A stretch of 64,000 nt of DNA from Paramacrobiotus metropolitanus (Eukaryota > Tardigrada > Eutardigrada > Parachela > Macrobiotidae): NCBI RefSeq assembly GCF_019649055.1, contig NW_026570294.1:186001-250000 (forward strand), read 5' to 3'. Positions 26,092 to 28,758 of the stretch are shown here, one piece after another. Each line of letters starts with the position of its first letter. The first letter of the stretch is position 1. Under the pieces are notes generated by a model. The model made no database searches. It saw only the letters and a list, made by a program, of their open reading frames with translations, and had not been told where the DNA came from. The position numbers and the translations under genes were made by a program.

Positions 26092-28758
26092 ATGCTTGAA
26101 GGCGTCGAAACGACTACGAGATGGGCATTCATGATTCGGATGCGAGGCAGGGCAGCCACATTCTCCTTCATGCTCACCTGTTGGTTTGGCGTTCTGGGCA
26201 TATTGGACAACGCTGCTGTCGGCGGGAGTGCCTATGTTCTGCAAGAAGTCTTTCGCGATGACTTCGCTGAGGATGAATTAAACCTGACCCGCTGGAACGC
26301 CGCCGACGTCAAGTCTGAGGTGAACAACGAGCTGCAGTACTACCGACCGGACAACGTCTACCTCTTCAACGGCACGCTGCATCTCGTCGGTCGGCAGGAG
26401 GATTATGGCGGCTGCGCGTACACCTCGGGGCGGGTGGATACCCGTGGCAAGTTCAACTTTTCCTACGGCGAGAGTGAGTGGCGGGCGCGGGTCCCCAGCG
26501 GGCGAGGTCTCTGGCCGGCACTGTGGCTGGTCCATCCGGAGTGTGCCGCCGGGATTCCCTGCTTTGGCTACTGGCCACCGTCCGTCAGTTTGGAAGCGCG
26601 TGGCCAGGAGCCCGAGGTCATTAGTGTCACGGCATTCTACGTACCCACGAACGGCCCTGAGATTCGCAAATCCGCGCAGCTGGTGGACATGAAGCAGGAC
26701 ATGTCGCGAGATTTCCACGTTTATAAGATGATTTGGACGACGGAGGCGCTGCTGTGGTTTGTCGACGGCGCGATGGTGTTCTCCATGGTGGGCTCCGAAA
26801 AGGTACCCACGGTGGCGCTGCAAGTGGTGATGAATCTGGCCGTGGGCGGTAATTTCGCCGGGGAGCCCGACAATAGTACGCGGTTCCCCGCGGAGCTCCT
26901 CATCGACTACGTGGTGGTGCGCCAGGGCGACATCGACATATCGTCGTGGGTGAACATTACAACGGGCAACCAGGATGTTATACCGGGACCGCCGGTGGTG
27001 GTTATCCTCTTGGGAAGTCTCGTGGGAGTGCTAGTCGCCACATTAACGGGCGTTTTTGGTGGTTGGATGTACCGGCGGCGGCGTCGACGCTTACGGGAAA
27101 ACAGCTTGAGCCTGACCGCTTCCACCAGCGTGGATTCCTCCCGTTCAGCCTACCTGGTCTACCTTGACGAGTCAGGTTTGGAGGTGGCGAACACGGCCAT
27201 CCAGCACTATGTACATTTGCTGGAGATCCCCTTAGTCAACGTCGAAGTCGGTGAGCCAAAGCCTTGACTGAGTGAAAAATGTTCCTGATTGAATGTTTCC
27301 TTAGGTGGTATCCTGGGAAGAGGCGAGCATGGCATTGTCCGCAAAGGCGTGGCAACGGGACTGCGAGGTCAGCCACTGCCCACCCAGGTGGCTATTAAGA
27401 CAATGCGAAATAAGACTGACCCGGAGCAGATCCGACAGATTATCCAGGAAATGAAGATAATGACACAGGCCGGCCGCCACCTCAACATAATTAACCTCCT
27501 TGGCGCTGTTTTCAAAGGTATCTGAAAAGCTTTAAGGATATCCATTAAAGCTTCGTCTTACTTGAGTAACTGTTCTCCGAACAGACCGTTTTACTGTCAA
27601 ACAAATTGTCAAAATGTTTTTATTGTCTACTAGGTACTTCGTATAGAAAATTAGTTTAAAAACAGATGGCCATAAAGTGGCGCACAGCGAATCTTTAAGA
27701 CTGCTCGAGAGTGAGATCGACTTGGTATGTATGAGTTCCATTTTGCATTATCAGGTGAAACGTATCTGCTGTTGGAGTATTCGGAAAACGGATCTCTTTT
27801 GAAGTATTTGCGGTCTCATCAAGGACCCCTTTTCAATAATTACACTGATGCTGACGGCCTGATAAAGGCCCACGACGAGACGGAAGCCAGCCACTTGCAG
27901 CAGGCGTCTAGTTCAGAGACGGAGGCGGTTAGCCAAGGCGAAGGTCCCGACGGAAAGGTTCTGTCGACACACGACCTGATGAGCTTCGCCTTCCAGGTCA
28001 GTCGCGGCATGGTGTATCTCAACAGTCGCTCCATTATCCACCGCGATCTGGCGGCCCGAAACATTCTCGTCTGCCAGAGCGGTATCGTCAAGATCGCCGA
28101 CTTTGGTATGGCGCGACAAGTGTCGGAGTACCTCCTCCTGAACCAGCACGTAAGAACAGCTCTTAGATAGCCATTGACAAAATAAGCCATTGACAAAATA
28201 GTGATCAGAAGTTTTTTAAGGGTTCTGAGGCTCTTAGCTTGCTTGCAGGTGGCGTTGCCGGTGCGCTGGATGGCACCCGAATCGATTCGACAACGCACCT
28301 TTTCGCAGAAGTCGGACGTGTGGTCTTTCGGCGTGCTGATGTGGGAGCTCTTCAGTCTGGGCGAGACGCCCTTCTCGAGCTCCACCTTAAATGTCGGCAA
28401 TATTACCGAGTTTCTTGCGTCGTTGCTGGAAGGCAGCCGTATGCAGCGCCCGCCAGCTTGCCCCTCCGCAATGTAGGTGACCTGTCACAATTCATTTAGA
28501 CGGAAAATAACGTTGGTTTGCGCTGTCGCCAGATACGACATCATGCTGCAATGCTGGCGCTTGCAACCGGTGGAGCGGCCAACGTTTAGCCAACTGGAGC
28601 AGGAACTGACCGGTCTGGTGGGTCGAGACTCCGCCGAAAATTATCTCGTCCTCGACAAGCCCTACCAGCAATTCAACGTCGAGCATCAGAATCTCCTTAA
28701 CGAGATCGTGGGTGACGCGCGCTATACGTCCATTGATACGGCTGAGTGCCGACTATGA
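26092..28758 (+). CDS. Receptor tyrosine kinase with a GH16 (beta-1,3-glucanase-like) ectodomain
   Basis: Five exons join in frame to 738 residues: 26092-27250, 27305-27517, 27755-28149, 28249-28472 and 28533-28758. The N-terminal hydrophobic stretch (~22-46) is a signal peptide. Residues ~53-278 are a GH16 fold: [45 protein letters not shown] and [12 protein letters not shown]. The catalytic loop WPxSGEIDxxE is replaced by [11 protein letters not shown], three residues shorter; the nucleophile Glu and its Asp are gone, so it should bind rather than cut glycan. A TM helix at ~301-325 ends in a run of arginines. The kinase has GRGEHG (391-396), VAIK (Lys ~418), a kinase insert (~479-526), HRDLAARN (553-560), DFG (573-575), VRWMAPE and [15 protein letters not shown] marks a tyrosine kinase, and the insert is like VEGFR/PDGFR/FGFR. 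Tail tyrosines (NYLVL, RYTSI) could bind SH2 proteins. Five Asn-X-Ser/Thr sites lie outside. Confidence 0.9.
28169..28200 (+). repeat. 16-bp tandem duplication in RTK intron 3
   Basis: AGCCATTGACAAAATA occurs twice in a row inside the 99-bp intron between the DFG and APE exons. A simple slippage duplication with no coding effect. Confidence 0.85.

Follow-up and report, generated by a model that had tools for sequence, protein, structure and literature searches.

The window analyzed here is a stretch of 64,000 nucleotides of the Paramacrobiotus metropolitanus genome (contig NW_026570294.1, positions 186,001 to 250,000), and at 26092-28758 on its forward strand lies a five-exon gene whose corrected spliced model predicts a 738-aa protein followed by TGA (CDS 2217 nt). 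The predicted protein consists, in order, of an N-terminal signal/anchor segment, a GH16 jelly-roll, a single transmembrane (TM) helix, and a complete tyrosine kinase in which the motifs are intact (Table 1). Exon 1 is contained in a single 411-aa open frame (26032-27267) that matches the Pfam GH16 profile PF00722 at 54.6 bits (cut-off 22); the remaining four exons are within 1.5 kb downstream and cover PF07714 in sequence (profile positions 3-72, 73-157, 165-232, and 225-258). In-frame ATG codons are present at 26092, 26131, and 26140, and which of these starts translation is uncertain; the N terminus reads as a hydrophobic segment with Arg before it, a putative signal/anchor. KD19 hydropathy reaches its maximum of 2.48 in segments starting at residues 302-303, with RRRRRR next. 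Elsewhere in the window, an uninterrupted 961-aa open frame (2163-5048, forward strand) has no Pfam match. In the genome as a whole, CAHS proteins, which are characteristic of tardigrades, have about 20 matches with identities of up to 71%.

Table 1. Predicted features of the GH16-kinase gene, in window coordinates
Feature	Position	Strand	Remarks
Exon 1: signal/anchor, GH16 ectodomain, TM, juxtamembrane	26092..27250	+	Ends in phase 1
GH16 jelly-roll ectodomain, about residues 48-288	26233..26955	+	AF2 pLDDT 89, laminarinase-like fold
Degenerated catalytic motif	26572..26607	+	Aligned to WPP-EIDVMEFRG of the secreted paralogue
TM helix, about residues 295-325, then RRRRRR stop-transfer	26974..27068	+	KD19 peak 2.48
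Juxtamembrane-to-kinase intron	27251..27304	+	54 bp, phase 1, GT-AG (gtgagc...ttccttag)
Exon 2: glycine loop (GRGEHG), VAIK Lys, alpha-C Glu	27305..27517	+	
Exon 3: hinge, kinase insert, HRDLAARN catalytic loop, DFG, activation-loop Tyr583	27755..28149	+	
Exon 4: kinase C-lobe (PVRWMAPES...DVWSFGV)	28249..28472	+	Donor corrected to 28472/28473
Exon 5: kinase end and tail with Tyr701 and Tyr708	28533..28758	+	Stop TGA

A preliminary description of this locus had proposed a five-exon GH16-TM-kinase gene. Its architecture and exons are borne out by Pfam, and the 54-bp phase-1 intron between the juxtamembrane and kinase coding segments (GT at 27251, AG at 27303-27304) is as it was described, but the exon 4 donor needed to be shifted. 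Exon 4 must end at 28472, at the donor AAT/gtaggtgacc, because a donor at 28475 or 28476 brings TAG into frame. The kinase has its glycine loop, VAIK Lys, alpha-C Glu, and all other catalytic motifs intact (K/E/D/N/D), and the domain is complete and separated from the ectodomain by one TM segment, as in a receptor tyrosine kinase (RTK). The closest PDB kinases are of the VEGFR, FGFR, and PDGFR types (about 210-220 bits), which have in common with the window's receptor a kinase insert and activation-loop and tail tyrosines. The ectodomains of these receptors are Ig-type with protein ligands, whereas Pfam finds no Ig domain in the window's receptor.

A model of this composition could also arise where a gene for a secreted GH16 protein lies next to a kinase gene and the two are read as one, or from an assembly join. 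At the locus itself, the frame is open through the TM and juxtamembrane segments up to a consensus donor. Beyond it, pairing of 104 ectodomain-query and 157 kinase-query matches by strand and distance (<8 kb) identified at least 42 related kinases that are preceded, on their own strand, by a GH16 domain; these loci are spread over about 20 contigs of the 169.8-Mb assembly. Thirty-six paralogues were modelled with a purpose-written spliced protein-to-genome aligner, which was guided by the window's protein, so that the exact ends of divergent exons are approximate. All 36 have the TM segment, and in 33, on many contigs, the phase-1 juxtamembrane intron falls at the same codon (equivalent to residues 385-387); the kinase introns (phases 1, 0, and 2) are conserved in 31-32 of the 36. 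Trees of the ectodomain and kinase halves are congruent (Mantel r = 0.791, 0/2000 permutations), and share 19 of 34 splits where 0.24 would be expected by chance. The conserved junction intron, the TM segment, and the congruent trees lead us to reject the two-gene or assembly-join reading, to which we attach almost no probability. The GH16-kinase arrangement is far beyond chance, and the tree congruence points to one fusion followed by duplication; the expanded family fits the duplication of a single fused ancestor. At C98:174000-240000 of this genome (G000), divergent GH16-kinase genes are densely clustered, with members on either strand, which suggests ongoing tandem duplication. No relatives were found in the viral contigs scanned.

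Both halves of the protein are constrained by purifying selection, as indicated by their low Ka/Ks. In a close set of genes Ka/Ks is 0.04-0.28 for the ectodomain and 0.11-0.28 for the kinase, with ectodomain values of 0.04-0.09 among three recent copies of the window's subclade; the more diverged pair L015-L048 gives 0.54 and 0.39. Activation-loop Tyr583 is kept in 86% of models, and tail Tyr701 in 29/29 of those reaching it. One subclade has a degraded kinase domain: in L034, L040, L055, and L064 (and partly in L036, L041-L043, and L051) the DFG Asp and glycine-loop residues are lost, and HRD is degraded in two cases. These losses indicate that there are pseudokinase receptors within the GH16-kinase family, which probably act as co-receptors or decoys. 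The presence of several pseudokinases, together with frameshift or stop calls in 13 of the 36 paralogue models (some of them perhaps alignment errors), raises the question as to whether the window's copy is itself a decaying paralogue in a birth-and-death family, without an important role. We consider this very improbable, as the window's copy is free of lesions, retains every catalytic residue of the kinase, and gives Ka/Ks values of 0.12-0.28 when compared with its relatives.

The ectodomain is a GH16 fold by both its jelly-roll and its PF00722 profile match. Sequence searches of the PDB retrieve bacterial and archaeal laminarinases (phmmer E 1e-31), and a profile search reaches E 1e-46 to the laminarinase 3azx. 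The preliminary description had put forward structure prediction against GH16 as a check, and laminarinase folds are indeed closest: an AlphaFold2 model built with 13 bacterial GH16 relatives aligned (pLDDT 89.4, compared with only 33 from the single ectodomain sequence) matches laminarinases in the PDB at Z 28-31, the best at Z 30.7 (rmsd 2.1, 228 residues aligned). The ectodomain thus has fold and sequence in common with GH16 laminarinases (endo-beta-1,3-glucanases) such as 3azx, 2vy0, and 4bow. Gene structure, about 40 paralogues, selection, and the predicted fold together strongly support the earlier proposal of an RTK with a GH16-fold ectodomain, and of this architecture we are nearly certain.

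Unlike the laminarinases, the receptors have lost the catalytic nucleophile Glu and the helper Asp, and are fused to a TM segment and a kinase. No receptor locus of the tardigrade genome contains the E-x-D-x-x-E motif, which rules out an active receptor-enzyme family-wide. Among the tardigrade loci fetched, the motif occurs only in a secreted single-domain paralogue at C25:1201274-1202296 (L021 and L027; CPGTWPPEIDVMEFRGD), which has an intact EIDVME and an N-terminal signal-like segment, and is probably an active relative of the receptor ectodomains, as judged by that motif. Alignment to this paralogue shows that in the window's copy both the nucleophile Glu and the helper Asp are replaced by Ser; in the five nearest paralogues, Ala takes the place of the nucleophile. 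Ser or Ala at the GH16 nucleophile is the substitution used by crystallographers to trap substrate. By its sequence, the ectodomain is a pseudoenzyme, a catalytically dead laminarinase fold. The preliminary description had taken no account of this loss, nor of the size of the family or the tardigrade host.

Loss of catalysis leaves the question of ligand binding, for which we took the glucan-contact residues of the GH16 cleft from the SCLam complex (PMC7961093, Table 2) and placed them on the receptor by sequence alignment and not from model coordinates. Much of the negative-subsite cleft of the laminarinases is common to the window's subclade of six genes: all six members retain the MN-AVGG loop and residues equivalent to N53, W129, and W139. 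The equivalents of E144 and D146 are lost and that of H163 is Phe, and the absence of D146, a -1 subsite hydrogen-bonding residue, and of the +1 His counts against glucan binding. In the larger, distant subclades the cleft positions are scrambled, and in most of these subclades the cleft aromatics are gone, yet the cystine pair, the DFH His, the core Trp, and the IDYV Asp are still kept. GH16 enzymes carrying an E-to-S mutation have been shown by ITC to bind glucan, the examples being SCLam E144S (PMC7961093) and ZgLamA E269S. The Mycobacterium tuberculosis protein Rv0315, an inactive GH16 protein, has the fold intact but fails to bind laminarin (PMC4606783), so the GH16 fold alone is no proof of glucan binding. 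A cleft kept with the nucleophile lost suggests a substrate-trap-like lectin in the window's subclade, and altered ligands elsewhere.

These patterns are open to two readings. The one we favor, with moderate confidence, is that the window's gene encodes a single-pass RTK acting as a glycan receptor, in which a dead GH16 laminarinase ectodomain has its glucan cleft largely kept. The other is that the GH16 fold has been repurposed for a protein (or lipid) ligand in a developmental or physiological RTK family, the cleft residues being relics. This would agree with the finding that most subclades have lost the cleft residues while fold, cystine pair, and kinase persist, with the example of Rv0315, and with the protein ligands of the most similar kinase types; we regard it as a substantial, though less probable, alternative, since the window's subclade keeps its cleft residues in every member and has a strongly constrained ectodomain, and the residues lost are the catalytic ones in particular. 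For the window's subclade, a glycan ligand seems to us slightly better than an even prospect. The preliminary description had proposed direct sensing of beta-glucan. This is plausible for the window's subclade, where the cleft is largely kept, but, with a pseudoenzyme ectodomain and the cleft lost across most of the family, it would be unlikely for all members.

If the glycan-receptor reading is correct, the ectodomain would be a lectin, binding beta-1,3-glucan or a similar polysaccharide but leaving it uncleaved. A multivalent ligand would cluster receptors at the cell surface, and the clustered kinases could then trans-phosphorylate the activation loop (Tyr583) and the tail (Tyr701/Tyr708), the phosphorylated tyrosines recruiting SH2/PTB adaptors. 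The likeliest use would be to recognize glycans of fungi, algae, or bacteria at an epithelium, either for defense or for sensing food. Other ligands are probable for the distant paralogues, in which the cleft is eroded. An immune role of the receptor is possible, but in our estimate less likely than not.

Catalytically dead GH16 domains are also used for recognition in the animal GNBP, beta-GRP, and LGBP proteins, which are secreted, often have an N-terminal CBM39, and signal via proteases and Toll or prophenoloxidase. The loss of GH16 catalytic residues is common to these proteins and the receptor, which differs in being a membrane-bound kinase. A Pfam scan of the exon 1 frame returned only GH16-type matches and no CBM39, and a genome search with PF15886 gave no match, its controls being equally silent. 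Amidase_2 has one weak match in this genome. Tardigrades have been reported to be without detectable GNBP1/3 and PGRP-SA/SD homologues and without parts of the canonical NF-kB routes (PMC7056985). The pseudoglucanase RTK class comprises at least 42 loci, of which some have dead kinases, besides secreted or GPI-like kinase-less forms; it could be imagined as germline-diversified pattern recognition replacing the missing GNBP/PGRP-Toll route, a system comparable in design to the plant lectin receptor kinases, but we consider this unlikely. The kinase-less forms include pseudo-GH16 genes at C154:34954-36474 (L025, L017) and C84:67665-68360 (L022), whose hydrophobic C terminus resembles a GPI-anchor signal; they are possible decoys or co-receptors.

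Searches of the open full-text literature turned up no account of a receptor that combines GH16 with a tyrosine kinase. Nor, as the preliminary description had remarked, is a GH16 ectodomain known from a standard RTK class; novelty is claimed relative to the literature searched and to established RTK classes. In a comparison of two tardigrade genomes, 27 kinase clusters found only in tardigrades are mentioned but not described further (PMC5531438), and orthologues may thus already stand unremarked in annotations. The nearest parallel in design is CHRK1, the tobacco chitinase-related receptor-like kinase, in which a glycoside-hydrolase ectodomain without the catalytic Glu is carried on a membrane kinase (PMC10573068). 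Its chitinase-related ectodomain and plant RLK kinase are not homologous to those of the tardigrade receptor, and the resemblance is convergent. If our interpretation holds, the receptors would form an RTK class whose distinguishing feature is a glycan-binding type of ectodomain derived from an enzyme. Polysaccharide recognition and tyrosine phosphorylation would then be directly linked within one animal molecule, an arrangement for which the other known examples come from plants (CHRK1 and lectin RLKs). Because the family is large and the genome also encodes what is probably an active enzyme relative, the transition from enzyme to receptor can be studied here.

Two further observations concern kinases of this family. 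Loci L079-L082 encode same-family kinases with a TM segment and conserved exon structure, and no GH16 was detected in the 1-2 kb fetched upstream. Locus L083 (G000, C136:165200-167700, minus strand) has HCD in place of HRD, and contains three in-frame tandem copies of the catalytic-loop kinase exon (312 bp each), which are 99.6-99.8% identical and form one open frame, reflecting either a recent duplication or an assembly artefact.
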